A DNA stretch of 64,000 nt, from positions 318,478 to 382,477 of the forward strand of contig NZ_JAANNP010000002.1 of the NCBI RefSeq assembly GCF_011250635.1, in the 5' to 3' direction. This document shows positions 26,590 through 31,865 of this stretch, in pieces; position 1 is the first letter of the stretch, and each line of letters opens with the position of its first letter. The DNA comes from Motilibacter deserti. GTDB lineage: Bacteria; Actinomycetota; Actinomycetes; Motilibacterales; Motilibacteraceae. The notes under the pieces were generated by a model. That model ran no database searches, had not been told where the DNA came from, and was given only the letters and a program-made list of their open reading frames with translations. The translations under genes and the position numbers were made by a program.

Positions 26590-28572
26590 TCAGACCTTCC
26601 GCACGGTCAGGATGTGGGCCGGCTCGGTGTAGGGGTCGAGCCGGACGTAGTTGTGCTGGCCCCACCAGAACGTCTCGCCCGTGATCTCGTCACGCACGGC
26701 GAAGTGGTCGTCCCAGCCGAAGCCGAGTTCGGGCATGTTCAGGTGGACGGTGTCCTCCCGGACCGAATGCGGGTCGAGGTTGACCACCACGAGGACCGTG
26801 TCGTCCGAGCCGTCGGCGCGCACCACCCGCTTGCTGTAGGCGAGGATGTGCTCGGAGTCGGTCTCGTGGAAACGCAGGCCGCGCAGGCGTTGCAGGGCCA
26901 GGTGATCGCGGCGCAGCCGGTTGAGCAGCGTGAGGTACGGCGAGAGGGTGCGCCCCTCCCGCTCGGCCGCCTCCCAGTCGCGCGGGCGGTACTGGTACTT
27001 CTCCGAGTCGAGGTACTCCTCGCTGCCCGGCCGCACCGCGACGTGCTCGTAGAGCTCGTAGCCGGAGTAGATCCCGTACGACGGCGTGAGCGTCGCCGCG
27101 AGGGTCGCGCGGATCTTGAACGCCGCCGGCCCGCCGTACTGCAGGTAGGCGTGCAGGATGTCCGGCGTGTTCGGCCAGAAGTTCGGCCGGTAGAAGTGCG
27201 CCGTCTCCGTCGACAGCTCGGTGAGGTAGTCGACGAGCTCCTGCTTCGAGGTGCGCCAGGTGAAGTAGGTGTAGCTCTGGTGGTAGCCGACCTTGGCCAG
27301 CTCGTGCATCATCGCCGGCCGGGTGAAAGCCTCGGCGAGGAAGAGCACGTCGGGGTCGGTCTTGCGGACCTCTCCCAGCAGCCATTCCCAGAAGTTGACC
27401 GGCTTGGTGTGCGGGTTGTCGACGCGGAAGATCCGCACGCCGTGGCTGATCCAGTGCCGGACGATCCGCAGGACCTCGTTGTAGATCCCCTGCGGGTCGT
27501 TGTCGAAGTTGATCGGGTAGATGTCCTGGTACTTCTTCGGCGGGTTCTCGGCGTACGCGATCGTGCCGTCCGCGCGCGTCGTGAACCACTCCGGGTGCTC
27601 CTTGACCCACGGGTGGTCCGGCGAGGCCTGCAGCGCGAGGTCGAGCGCGACCTCCATGCCGAGCTCGCGCGTCCGGGCGACGAAGGAGTCGAAGTCCTCG
27701 ATCGTGCCGAGGTCGGGGTGGACGGCGTCGTGCCCGCCCGCGGGGCTGCCGATCGCCCACGGCACGCCGGGGTCGTCCGGCGCGGGGTCGAGGGTGTTGT
27801 TGCGCCCCTTGCGCGCGGTGAAGCCGATGGGGTGGATGGGCGGAAGGTAGACGACGTCGAAGCCCATCGCCGCGATCGCGGGGAGGCGCTCGGCCGCCTG
27901 CCGGAAGGTGCCCGAGCGCGCCGGCTCGCCGTCGCCGCCCAGGCTCGAGCCCTCCGAGCGCGGGAACAGCTCGTACCAGCTGCTGAAGAGCGCCCGCTCC
28001 CGGTCGACCTGCAGCGGGAACCGCTCGGTCGAGGTGACGAGGTCGCGCAGCGGCAGCTCGGCCAGCGTCGCCGTCACCTCCGGCGCGGTGGCCGCGGCGT
28101 AGCGCGCCTCAACGGGCCGGTCGGCGTCGCGCAGCGCCGCGACCGCGTCGGTCAGCGCGCGCTTGCCCGTGGCCGAGCGCCCAGCGACCTTCGCGGCCCG
28201 CTCCAGCAGGCGCGCGCCCTCCTCGAGCATCAGCTCCACGTCGAGGCCCGCGGGGACCTTGATCCCCGCGTCGTGGTGCCACGTCTCGTAGGGATCGCTC
28301 CACGCCTCTATGGCGAAGCTCCAGCGCCCTTCGCTGGTCGGCTCTACCTCGGCCTCCCAGACGTCGATGCCCGGGCCGAGCTTGCGCATCGGTGTCCATG
28401 GGCCCTTCCGACCATCGGGGTCCCGCAGGACCACGTTGGCTGCTACGGCGTCGTGCCCCTCGCGAAACACCGTCGCCGACACGGTGAAACGCTCGCCCAC
28501 TACCGCCTTGGCCGGGTATCTGCCACATGCCACGACGGGCTGGACGTTGCTGATGGGGATGCGTCCGGTCAT
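26590..28572 (-). CDS. glgE: Alpha-1,4-glucan:maltose-1-phosphate maltosyltransferase GlgE
   Basis: The 660-residue GH13_3 enzyme extends linear alpha-1,4-glucan with maltose from maltose-1-phosphate. The N-terminal beta domain starts ISNVQPVVACGRYPAKAVVGE, typical of GlgE. In the barrel, Asp385 (FRVDNPHTKP) is the nucleophile and Glu414 (FLAEAFTRP) the acid/base; their spacing of 29 is the same as I recall for the Streptomyces enzyme. ATG at 28572 is preferred over an upstream GTG because it gives the family N-terminus and has TAGGTT exactly 8 nt upstream, consistent with a leaderless message. It is the first gene of glgE-treS-mak-glgB-NYN. Confidence 0.96.
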   Translation of the reverse strand: MTGRIPISNVQPVVACGRYPAKAVVGERFTVSATVFREGHDAVAANVVLRDPDGRKGPWTPMRKLGPGIDVWEAEVEPTSEGRWSFAIEAWSDPYETWHHDAGIKVPAGLDVELMLEEGARLLERAAKVAGRSATGKRALTDAVAALRDADRPVEARYAAATAPEVTATLAELPLRDLVTSTERFPLQVDRERALFSSWYELFPRSEGSSLGGDGEPARSGTFRQAAERLPAIAAMGFDVVYLPPIHPIGFTARKGRNNTLDPAPDDPGVPWAIGSPAGGHDAVHPDLGTIEDFDSFVARTRELGMEVALDLALQASPDHPWVKEHPEWFTTRADGTIAYAENPPKKYQDIYPINFDNDPQGIYNEVLRIVRHWISHGVRIFRVDNPHTKPVNFWEWLLGEVRKTDPDVLFLAEAFTRPAMMHELAKVGYHQSYTYFTWRTSKQELVDYLTELSTETAHFYRPNFWPNTPDILHAYLQYGGPAAFKIRATLAATLTPSYGIYSGYELYEHVAVRPGSEEYLDSEKYQYRPRDWEAAEREGRTLSPYLTLLNRLRRDHLALQRLRGLRFHETDSEHILAYSKRVVRADGSDDTVLVVVNLDPHSVREDTVHLNMPELGFGWDDHFAVRDEITGETFWWGQHNYVRLDPYTEPAHILTVRKV

Positions 28573-28580
28573 CGAGGGCG

Positions 28581-28586
28581 AACCTA
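28581..28586 (-). promoter_or_regulatory. -10 box TAGGTT for a leaderless glgE operon transcript
   Basis: Read on the minus strand, TAGGTT ends 8 nt before the glgE ATG at 28572, which places the transcription start at or next to the A of the start codon. No ribosome binding site lies between them. The -35 region is not clear. Confidence 0.45.
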
Positions 28587-28728
28587 CCCAGGTGCAGCCG
28601 GAGATCACCTATCCGGTGCCCCCTCCGCGTCCCGGCGTCGCTGCCCTCTCGCTGACGCTCCGCGTGGTGACCCGTGCCGCGCGTGGTCGGGCGGATCAAC
28701 TCGCGTCATCGCTCCGACACGTGGGCGA

Positions 28729-28747: not shown

Positions 28748-28849
28748 TGAGCAGTTGTCGAACGCGGTTTGCCGTCGTGGCGGGGGCGGAAGCGGGCGCG
28801 TACGGCGTTGGCCGCCGCCACCGCCGCCACCCGCAGTGGAGGGAGAGCA

Positions 28850-28984
28850 ATGAACGACTACACCCCGCCGCAGATCACGGTCATGGGGACGCTCGAGCAG
28901 CTGACCGCGGCGTCCGTGTCCGGCAGCCGAACCGACGTGCCGCTGGGCACCCCGATCGGCCCGTCGCCGATCATCTTCTCCTAG
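28850..28984 (+). CDS. Candidate lasso-peptide-type RiPP precursor (44 aa), orphan
   Basis: The 44-residue peptide has a leader matching the lasso leader pattern Y-x2-P-x-(L/I)-x3-G-x5-T: Tyr4, Pro7, Ile9, Gly13 and Thr19. If Thr19 is the -2 residue, as in the family, the core starts at Ala21, and the ninth core residue is Asp29, the normal position of the ring-closing Asp/Glu. The predicted core is 24 residues: a nine-residue ring and a Pro/Gly-rich tail ending in IIFS. A GGAGG ribosome binding site (28838-28842) lies 7 nt before the ATG. A GC-rich inverted repeat follows the stop. No B1/B2 or asparagine-synthetase-like cyclase gene exists in this window, so it is an orphan. The pattern is seen directly; modification and function are inferred. 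Confidence 0.68.
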   Translation: MNDYTPPQITVMGTLEQLTAASVSGSRTDVPLGTPIGPSPIIFS

Positions 28985-28992
28985 CCGCCGGA

Positions 28993-29034
28993 CCCGTCCC
29001 GCCGCCTCGGCACGTCGCCGGACGGCGGGGCGGG
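28993..29034 (+). terminator. GC-rich terminator-like inverted repeat after the small peptide gene
   Basis: CCCGTCCCGCCG (28993-29004) can pair with CGGCGGGGCGGG (29023-29034) with one G-T pair and an 18-nt loop. It starts 8 bp past the stop codon. There is no U-tract, as is common in high-GC actinobacteria. Confidence 0.5.
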
Positions 29035-29267
29035 CCGGGGCGGGCGCAGCGGCACACTCGCCTGCGGGACCATGTCTGTGATCAGCATTGAACTGTCCGT
29101 GATCGTCGAACGACGCCTCCTCCGCGTGCGGCTGGCAGCCGGACGGATGCGGAGCGGGTTTGCTCGGCGACCGAGAGGTGGGAAGGATGAGCGGACGGGT
29201 CGTCCGATGCAGTGCAGACGCAGAGATGCTGAACAGGCCAGTAGCCGCTGACGAGTGAGGGATCAAC

Positions 29268-31865
29268 GTGAGAGCCATCCGCCGCTTCACCGTGCGCACC
29301 GTTCTTCCGGAGGCGCTGGCGCCTCTCGGTGAGCTGTCGATGAACCTGCGCTGGTCCTGGCACCCCGAGACGCAGGACCTCTTCCGCGACGCAGACCCGG
29401 CGACCTGGGAGGCCGTCGGCCACGACCCGGTCGCGCTGCTCGGCGCGCTCGCGCCGGAGCGGCTCGCCGAGCTGGCGGGCGATGAGGGCTTCGTCCGTCG
29501 CGTGCACGAGGCCGCTGCGGACCTGCGCGAGTACCTCACCGGCTCGCGGTGGTACCAGTCGCTCGGCGGCGACGGCCAGGGCTCGGTCCCCGCGGCGATC
29601 GCCTACTTCTCCCCGGAGTACGGCATCACGAGCGTGCTCCCGCAGTACTCCGGCGGCCTCGGCATCCTCGCCGGCGACCACCTCAAGTCCGCCTCCGACC
29701 TCGGCGTGCCGATCGTCGGCGTGGGCCTGCTCTACCGGTCCGGCTACTTCCGCCAGTCGCTCTCCGGCGACGGCTGGCAGCAGGAGCACTACCCCGTGCT
29801 CGACCCCGACGGCATGCCGATCTCGGTGCTGCGCGAGCCTGACGGCTCGCCGCTCGTCGTCACTCTTGACCTGCCGGGCGGACGCGCGCTGCACGCCCGC
29901 GTCTGGGTGGCCCAGGTCGGCCGCGTCCCGCTGCTGCTGCTCGACTCCGACATCGAGACCAACGAGCCCGCCGAGCGCCAGGTCACCGAGCGCCTCTACG
30001 GCGGCGGCAACGAGACCCGCCTGCTGCAGGAGCTGCTGCTCGGCATGGGCGGGGTGCGCGCGCTCCGGGCGTACAGCCGCATCACCGGCGCCCCGGCTCC
30101 CGACGTCTTCCACACCAACGAGGGGCACGCCGGCTTCCTCGGCATCGAGCGCATCCGCGAGCTCGTCGCCGACGCAGGGCTCAGCTTCGACGAGGCGCTC
30201 GAGGCGGTCCGCGCCGGGACGGTCTTCACGACGCACACCCCGGTGCCGGCCGGCATCGACCGCTTCCCGCGCGACCTCGTCGCCCAGCACTTCTCCGGGC
30301 CGCTCGCCCCGCCCGAGGCGCTGGACCGGATCCTCGCGCTCGGCGCCGAGACCTACGAGGGCGGCGACCCCGGCGTGTTCAACATGGCCGTCATGGGCCT
30401 GCGCCTCGGCCAGCGGGCCAACGGCGTGAGCCTGCTGCACGGCGAGGTCAGCCGCGGGATGTTCTCGGGGCTCTGGCCGGGCTTCGACCCCTCCGAGGTG
30501 CCGATCACCTCGGTCACGAACGGCGTGCACGCGCCGACGTGGGTCGCCCGCGAGGCGCTCGACGCGGCCGAGCAGGCCGGCGGCGCCCGCGACTGGGAGG
30601 GGCTGTCCCGCCTCTCGGACTCGGACCTGTGGGGCGTCCGCCGGACCCTGCGCGAGAAGCTCGTCACCGACGCCCGTCGCCGGCTGCGCGCCTCGTGGCT
30701 GGAGCGCGGCGCGAGCGAGCCCGAGCTCGGCTGGATCGACTCCGCGCTGGACCCCGACGTGCTGACGATCGGCTTCGCGCGGCGCGTGCCGTCGTACAAG
30801 CGCCTGACGCTCATGCTGCGCGACCCCGCGCGCCTGAAGTCGCTGCTGCTGCACCCCGAGCGGCCGATCCAGATCATCGTCGCGGGCAAGGCGCACCCGG
30901 CCGACGAGGGCGGCAAGCGGCTCATCCAGGAGCTCGTCCGGTTCACCGACGACCCCGAGGTGCGCCACCGCATCGTCTTCCTGCCGAACTACGACATCGC
31001 CATGGCGCAGACGCTGCTCCCCGGCACCGACGTGTGGCTCAACAACCCGCTCCGCCCGCTCGAGGCGTCCGGCACGTCGGGCATGAAGGCCGCCCTCAAC
31101 GGCGGGCTCAACCTCTCGATCCTCGACGGCTGGTGGGACGAGTGGTTCGACGGCGAGAACGGCTGGGCGATCCCGACGGCCGACGGCGTCAACGACCCGA
31201 ACCGCCGTGACGACCTCGAGGCCGCTGGCCTCTACGACCTCATCGAGACCCAGGTCGCGTCGCGGTTCTACGACCGCGGCCACGACGGCGTCCCGCAGCG
31301 CTGGATCCAGATGGTGCGCCACACCCTGCAGTCGCTCGGCCCGAAGGTGCTCGCCAGCCGACAGGTCCAGGACTACGTCAACCAGCTCTACCTGCCCGCC
31401 GCCACCTCCGTCCACGGCCTCGGCGAGGACCTCAAGGGCGCGAAGGTGCTGGCCGAGTGGAAGCGCAGCGTGCGCGGCTCGTGGGACGGCGTGCGCGTCG
31501 ACCACGTCGAGTCCGAGGGCGTCGGCGACGCGCCGGAGGTCGGGGCCGTGCTGCACATCCGCGCGTTCGTCTCCATCGGCGCGCTGCAGCCCGGCGACGT
31601 GGAGGTGCAGCTCGTGCACGGCCGCGTCGACGAGGGCGACGAGCTGACCGACACCGCCACGCTGACCCTGGACCACGCCGAGGCGTACGAAGGCGGGCGC
31701 CACCGCTACGACGGCGAGCTGACGCTGGAGCGGACCGGCGCGTTCGGCTACACCGTGCGGGTGCTGCCGTCGACGAAGCTGGCCGCCGCTCCGGCCGAGC
31801 TCGGCCTCGTCGCCAACGCGGTCGTCTCCGAGGGCCTGGCGAAGGGCGCTCCGCCGCTGCGCTGA
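29268..31865 (+). CDS. glgP: Alpha-glucan (glycogen/maltodextrin) phosphorylase GlgP
   Basis: The 865-residue GT35 enzyme releases glucose-1-phosphate from alpha-1,4-glucan using pyridoxal phosphate. It belongs to the shorter actinobacterial/thermophilic branch, beginning with a MNLRWSWHPET segment. Motifs include PQYSGGLGILAGDHLKSASD, HTNEGHAGF and the cofactor-binding Lys607 in GTSGMKAALNGGLN. An extra C-terminal beta domain of about 120 residues follows, as usual for this branch. GTG at 29268 has a GAGGG ribosome binding site 8 nt upstream. It is convergent with glgX across a long palindrome and likely supplies breakdown of the glucan made by the neighbouring GlgE operon. Confidence 0.93.
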   Translation: MRAIRRFTVRTVLPEALAPLGELSMNLRWSWHPETQDLFRDADPATWEAVGHDPVALLGALAPERLAELAGDEGFVRRVHEAAADLREYLTGSRWYQSLGGDGQGSVPAAIAYFSPEYGITSVLPQYSGGLGILAGDHLKSASDLGVPIVGVGLLYRSGYFRQSLSGDGWQQEHYPVLDPDGMPISVLREPDGSPLVVTLDLPGGRALHARVWVAQVGRVPLLLLDSDIETNEPAERQVTERLYGGGNETRLLQELLLGMGGVRALRAYSRITGAPAPDVFHTNEGHAGFLGIERIRELVADAGLSFDEALEAVRAGTVFTTHTPVPAGIDRFPRDLVAQHFSGPLAPPEALDRILALGAETYEGGDPGVFNMAVMGLRLGQRANGVSLLHGEVSRGMFSGLWPGFDPSEVPITSVTNGVHAPTWVAREALDAAEQAGGARDWEGLSRLSDSDLWGVRRTLREKLVTDARRRLRASWLERGASEPELGWIDSALDPDVLTIGFARRVPSYKRLTLMLRDPARLKSLLLHPERPIQIIVAGKAHPADEGGKRLIQELVRFTDDPEVRHRIVFLPNYDIAMAQTLLPGTDVWLNNPLRPLEASGTSGMKAALNGGLNLSILDGWWDEWFDGENGWAIPTADGVNDPNRRDDLEAAGLYDLIETQVASRFYDRGHDGVPQRWIQMVRHTLQSLGPKVLASRQVQDYVNQLYLPAATSVHGLGEDLKGAKVLAEWKRSVRGSWDGVRVDHVESEGVGDAPEVGAVLHIRAFVSIGALQPGDVEVQLVHGRVDEGDELTDTATLTLDHAEAYEGGRHRYDGELTLERTGAFGYTVRVLPSTKLAAAPAELGLVANAVVSEGLAKGAPPLR

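Follow-up and report, generated by a model that had tools for sequence, protein, structure and literature searches.

A stand-alone lasso-peptide precursor gene between glgE and glgP of Motilibacter deserti and its probable maturation by enzymes encoded elsewhere in the genome

Overview

A 44-residue open reading frame (ORF) lies between the genes glgE and glgP in the 64,000-nucleotide stretch of Motilibacter deserti DNA analyzed here, referred to below as the window. Judged by its sequence and its homologues, the ORF is real, and it very probably encodes a lasso-peptide precursor rather than being a chance match. The peptide is probably finished by enzymes encoded elsewhere in the genome, and its product is most likely an extra variant in a small peptide repertoire, for which two precursors are encoded in a cluster and one or two outside it. 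The system is a variant of known lasso peptides, distinguished by dispersed precursors and a short cyclase, and not a new category.

Since genome mining for lasso peptides starts at the neighborhood of a cyclase or B protein, stand-alone precursors such as this one are missed. The genome offers a clean case, with two clustered and two stand-alone precursors that share a conserved leader, and with one of the stand-alone genes retained at an equivalent locus in each of the two species of the genus. This makes it possible to test directly whether lasso precursors are matured in trans, and it draws attention to short PP-loop cyclases that are missed by curated lasso models.

The Stand-Alone Gene and Its Signals

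The product of the gene is MNDYTPPQITVMGTLEQLTAASVSGSRTDVPLGTPIGPSPIIFS, read on the forward strand from an ATG at 28850 to a TAG that ends at 28984 (Table 1). An earlier reading of the window from sequence only had called it a lasso-like precursor, and the spacing on which that proposal rested is present: Tyr4, Pro7, Ile9, Gly13 and Thr19 supply the YxxPx(hydrophobic) motif, the glycine and the threonine at −2 of a lasso leader, and Asp29 falls at core position 9, within the range of positions 7–9 expected of the Asp or Glu that closes the ring. The six frames of the window contain the full motif (YxxPxh...G.....T, an Asp at core position 8 or 9, then a stop) a single time, where order-3 Markov sequences predict about 0.017 occurrences by chance.

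The gene was also said to be framed by a ribosome binding site and a GC-rich inverted repeat, and both were recovered. A Shine-Dalgarno sequence, GGAGGGAG, lies 5′ of the ATG. Purine-rich stretches of this kind precede the orthologue in a congener and most paralogues as well; for instance, AAGGAGC is found before the start codon of the orthologue and GGAAGGGGGG before that of the first clustered copy. No sigma-70-like promoter was found upstream of the ORF. On the 3′ side, positions 28984–29070 (87 nt) fold at −60.9 kcal/mol (z = −2.8). At the equivalent site of the congener there is also a near-perfect hairpin, although it is no better than shuffled sequences (z = 0). As neither hairpin is followed by a T tract and no T-tract terminator was found, "terminator" is a putative designation for these structures. 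Searches with Rfam near the locus gave no family above threshold.

Table 1. Coordinates of the precursor genes, their signals, and associated features
Feature	Location	Strand	Remarks
glgE, divergent upstream neighbor, not part of the lasso system	26590..28608	−	PF11896 227 bits, PF21702 119 bits
Ribosome binding site region, GTGGAGGGAGAGC	28837..28849	+	directly 5′ of the ATG
Lasso precursor gene	28850..28984	+	leader M1–A20; predicted core A21–S44 (24 residues); predicted ring A21–D29 (core 1–9)
Leader-coding part	28850..28909	+	B1/RRE-binding motif Y4-x-x-P7-x-I9, G13, T19 at −2
Predicted core, ASVSGSRTDVPLGTPIGPSPIIFS	28910..28981	+	core residue 9 = D29
GC-rich inverted repeat, possible terminator or transcript-stabilizing hairpin	28984..29041 (about)	+	directly 3′ of the gene
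glgP-type phosphorylase, downstream neighbor, not part of the lasso system	29268..31865	+	PF00343, PF11897
Clustered precursors	L013:1905-2036 and 1542-1673 (C227)	−	paralogues of the window peptide
Short cyclase	L013:236-1489 (C227); L027:7415-8668	−; −	417 aa; PP-loop, SGGRDSS in the C227 copy
Stand-alone precursor unit, about 390 bp	L015:9204-9640 (C253)		between GH15 and GH16 genes

Curated models do not recognize the window peptide. It scores 16.2 bits against lasso_cyano (NF033528, cut-off 33), for which a cyanobacterial homologue discussed below reaches 30.6, and it is absent from the matches to lasso_leader_L3 (cut-off 19 bits). The case for the gene therefore rests on homology and on the remainder of the genome.

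A Lasso Cluster Elsewhere in the Genome

The genome is a 4.99-Mb draft in 269 contigs, of which C234 contains the window. As the sequence-only reading had noted, no B1, B2 or cyclase gene lies within the window; the genome's PqqD and Asn_synthase matches all lie on contigs other than C234, and one weak B2 match is on C234 outside the window. Profile searches of the genome with PqqD and Asn_synthase both lead to contig C227, where the minus strand carries, in order, B1, two precursors, the cyclase, and the start of B2. The search for a cyclase and B1 that the earlier reading had suggested thus ends at a cluster, in which B1 and the cyclase are complete and B2 is partial at the contig end.

The two clustered precursors, MREYSAPQLTVVGSLERLTAQSTAGSQTDVPIGTPVPPFSIFS and MKDYVAPQLTVVGTLEQLTGRSDVGFASDMPLAHPGTVFTVFS, share 59% and 57% identity with the window peptide and match it at E = 4e-12 and 8e-7, while a third paralogue resides on contig C253 (E = 4e-10). 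Both clustered precursors exceed the lasso_leader_L3 (NF033521) cut-off of 19 bits, with scores of 21.8 and 19.6. Because close paralogues adjoin the enzymes, the window gene is properly termed unclustered and not, as had been proposed, an orphan.

The B1 of the cluster is an 89-aa PqqD-type protein that scores 70 bits against PF05402 and 53 and 48 bits against the NCBIfam lasso PqqD models, which is under their cut-offs of 70 and 80. The cyclase has an Asn_synthase domain (54 bits) with a PP-loop but without the N-terminal glutaminase domain. A domain hidden upstream of it was considered and rejected, as precursor 2 fills that space. With 18.6 bits against lass_lactam_cya (NF033535, cut-off 525), this cyclase is outside the curated family, yet it may act in the manner of a lasso cyclase. 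The B2 frame is a GTG-started ORF that overlaps the cyclase stop and runs off the contig; this interruption accounts for the lack of any match to Transglut_core3 in the genome. The cluster holds no transporter gene.

The cluster is uninterrupted in the congener (G001), the single other species of the genus compared, where the cyclase is followed by a complete B2 of 156 aa that scores above cut-off against both PF13471 (35.1 bits, cut-off 26) and lasso_biosyn_B2 (NF033537; 38.5 bits, cut-off 33). The partial B2 of M. deserti is 82% identical to the start of this protein over 73 aa.

In both species, a gene for a DUF6065 protein (PF19541, 253 bits) sits on the opposite strand between B1 and the precursors (L013:2191-3168 and L027:9356-10327, both on the plus strand). 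No mention of DUF6065 was found in the open-access papers searched, which is weak evidence of absence. Three further PqqD-type domains occur in the genome of M. deserti, at L002 (C232:693654), L004 (C232:43679) and L003 (C231:25868). One is N-terminal to an HPr-kinase-like domain, one is beside an HPr-kinase-like frame, and one stands alone; they possibly belong to other peptide-modifying systems or to systems of unknown kind.

Conservation and Selection

A homologue between glgE and glgP had been suggested as something to look for in relatives, and the congener has one. This orthologue, MRDYTPPALTLRGRLEELTGASVTGTATDVPLSTPVTAPLSIFS, is 59% identical to the window peptide and scores 15.2 bits against lasso_leader_L3. 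No stand-alone precursor was found in three other genomes of the family.

Seven family members from the two species were aligned. Thirteen positions are invariant in all seven (Y4, P7, G13, L15, E16, L18, T19, S22, G25, D29, P31, F43 and S44), and with the threonine placed at −2, an Asp occupies position 9 of every core. The finding named beforehand as fatal to the idea of a lasso precursor, namely a genome with no cyclase or B1 and homologues in which Tyr, Pro, Gly, Thr and Asp29 are not conserved, is the reverse of what was observed, since the cluster is present and all five residues are invariant. The cores differ in their first residue: all three stand-alone precursors (that of the window, its orthologue, and the C253 copy) have Ala there, and those that are clustered have Gln or Arg. 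Residues published for position 1 of lasso peptides are Gly, Cys, Ser and Ala, along with Asn for metanodin (PMC12670498). By this standard, the stand-alone cores are more ordinary at position 1 than the clustered cores, whose Gln and Arg fall outside the established set.

Could the window gene be a relic, a duplicate precursor that has ceased to be matured and is now in decay between glgE and glgP? The missing promoter-like site and the modest identity of the orthologue agree with such a fate, as does the C253 copy, which shows that copies come and go. For the orthologue pair, dN/dS is about 0.39 overall, 0.21 in the leader, 0.37 in core residues 1–15, and about 0.9 (0.91) in the tail, the last of which is what decay would produce. 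The clustered precursors, by comparison, have values of 0.19 and 0.31, and the cyclase has 0.19. Nonsynonymous changes per site are fewer than synonymous changes (Fisher p = 0.025), and thus below the neutral prediction. Moreover, in the intergenic alignment of the window with the congener, the ORF is an ungapped island amid sequence that is gapped and far more diverged, and the start codon, Shine-Dalgarno sequence, leader motif, Thr at −2 and Asp9 are intact in both species. Drawn from one species pair, these comparisons are moderate evidence that the window gene is under purifying selection, and a decaying relic is unlikely.

A Second Stand-Alone Copy and the Glucan Neighborhood

The paralogue on C253 also stands apart from the enzymes, flanked by genes for a GH15 glucodextranase and a GH16 glucanase. 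In the congener, the same two neighbors are adjacent without a precursor; a stretch of about 390 bp, containing the gene, its upstream region, and the hairpin that follows it, has no counterpart there in the alignment. The absence of this unit from the syntenic site indicates that individual precursors are acquired or lost independently, each as a unit of its own.

Both stand-alone copies therefore adjoin glucan enzymes, and Pfam confirmed glgE and glgP as the neighbors of the window gene. A peptide turned to signaling or regulation, perhaps within alpha-glucan metabolism and with or without maturation, would fit these locations and the fact that both species keep the gene between glgE and glgP. 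However, synteny alone predicts a kept position in species so closely related, and two glucan-adjacent loci are too few to set against coincidence and prove nothing, because at least four GH15 genes above cut-off and a large alpha-glucan block are present in the genome. The congener, moreover, retains both glycosidase genes but has no copy at the C253 site. The core of the window peptide, ring acid included, is conserved as much as the cores of the clustered precursors, which speaks against repurposing. Such a role is very unlikely, and a link of the peptide to alpha-glucan metabolism is unsupported beyond gene position; the glg neighborhood of the precursor may be incidental.

Upstream of glgP, window positions 29147–29200 contain a conserved stretch, GGATGCGGAGCGGGTTTGCTCGGCGACCGAGAGGTGGGAAGGATG, that is common to the congener. 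It matches no Rfam family above threshold and has no unusual fold.

Wider Relatives and Known Systems

Among 395 genomes of the class and 98 relatives, close homologues were found in this genus alone. The same searches returned a less closely related precursor in G075, a distant relative, and, in G083, a weak match on a contig where no lasso cluster was seen. The G075 precursor (Gly1...Asp9, PAGTP...TFS) adjoins B2, an HPr-kinase-like protein, an ABC transporter, and a short PP-loop cyclase interrupted in the assembly. In G206, two short cyclases occur in clusters with PqqD, B2 (50.9 bits, cut-off 33) and lasso-like precursors, and a short form is also present in G239. The glutaminase-less short cyclase thus recurs beside B2 and lasso-type precursors in M. 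deserti and its congener, G206 and G075. Scanning contigs with the cyclase alignment yielded no confirmed relative.

A pattern scan of 84,980 species with the precursor alignment gave a sole confirmed match, in the cyanobacterium Petrachloros mirabilis ULC683 (NZ_WVIC01000042.1). Its precursor, MSSNKKAYAKPFLTIHGDVEVLTQQGGVSQTDVPLGTPVGPDGITSVAS, shares 50% identity with the window peptide across 38 residues, and the score of this match was not equaled by any of 5000 shuffled sequences. The core segment TDVPLGTP[IV]GP is nearly the same in the two peptides (TDVPLGTPVGP in Petrachloros), although the ring acid of the cyanobacterial peptide falls at position 8 if the Thr is at −2. The Petrachloros gene, unlike that of the window, is part of a canonical lasso cluster with a full-length cyclase (NF033535, 854 bits, cut-off 525), B2 (102 bits, cut-off 33), an HPr-kinase-like protein and an ABC transporter. 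Since a canonical cluster has almost the same core, the suggestion that the window holds an undescribed system was too strong.

These homologues also dispose of a chance ORF that happens to match the leader spacing: although spurious short ORFs abound in GC-rich DNA and the peptide alone is under the curated NCBIfam cut-offs, the motif is rarely expected by chance, and the peptide is homologous from end to end with three paralogues (E = 4e-12, 4e-10 and 8e-7), with an orthologue, and with a cyanobacterial precursor, which makes this explanation untenable.

The system of M. deserti resembles the lasso type with discrete B1 and B2 proteins (NF033521, NF033537) in its YxxPx(L/I) leader, its Thr at −2, its Asp at ring position 9, and a genome that encodes B1, B2 and an asparagine-synthetase-like cyclase, with the B2 of the congener above cut-off. 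It differs in that the window precursor is far from the enzymes, on another contig and between glgE and glgP, and in that the cyclase is only ~417 aa long, lacks the glutaminase domain, and is unmatched by the curated model. A parallel exists among the lanthipeptides known as prochlorosins, in which several precursors with a common leader share one enzyme set and some precursor genes are dispersed away from procM. The chemistry and enzymes of prochlorosins are unrelated to those considered here, where at most two precursors are dispersed and their maturation in trans is a prediction. Prochlorosins are described as having many precursors for the single promiscuous ProcM enzyme (PMC10783134). 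A search of open-access papers turned up none that deals with dispersed lasso precursors, a null result that is weak evidence.

Proposed Maturation in Trans

The reading that best accommodates these observations, and a likely one, is that the window gene is a functional, unclustered precursor that the C227 enzymes would mature in trans into a 24-residue lasso peptide closed between A1 and D9. The peptide would be translated from its own unit, after which the C227 B1 (PqqD/RRE) would bind the YxxPxI leader, as the motif suggests. Lasso RREs recognize [Y/W]xxPx[L/V/I/A/F/Y], and a lasso cluster may hold several precursors that have one leader motif in common (PMC13381572). The B2 cysteine protease of C227 would then cut after Ala20, with Thr19 at −2, and the short PP-loop cyclase would join the amino group of Ala21 to the side chain of Asp29. 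The predicted product has a 9-residue ring and a monoisotopic mass of 2336.24 Da, which is that of the predicted core minus one water and corresponds to an [M+2H]2+ of 1169.13. It would presumably adopt a threaded fold, be exported, and have a biological activity.

More tentatively, one enzyme set with a glutaminase-less cyclase could serve both clustered precursors and stand-alone precursors that come and go at remote loci, each under its own regulation, so that each lasso variant is tied to a different physiological cue, such as glucan turnover. This broader scheme is possible but doubtful.

A final observation concerns the C-terminus. All seven precursors of the genus end in an invariant Phe-Ser. 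Phosphorylation of the C-terminal Ser is a feature of paeninodin-type lasso peptides. Given this Phe-Ser end and the Ser-ended precursor of G075, which is accompanied by an HPr-kinase-like protein, phosphorylation of the C-terminal Ser of the genus precursors is conceivable by analogy.
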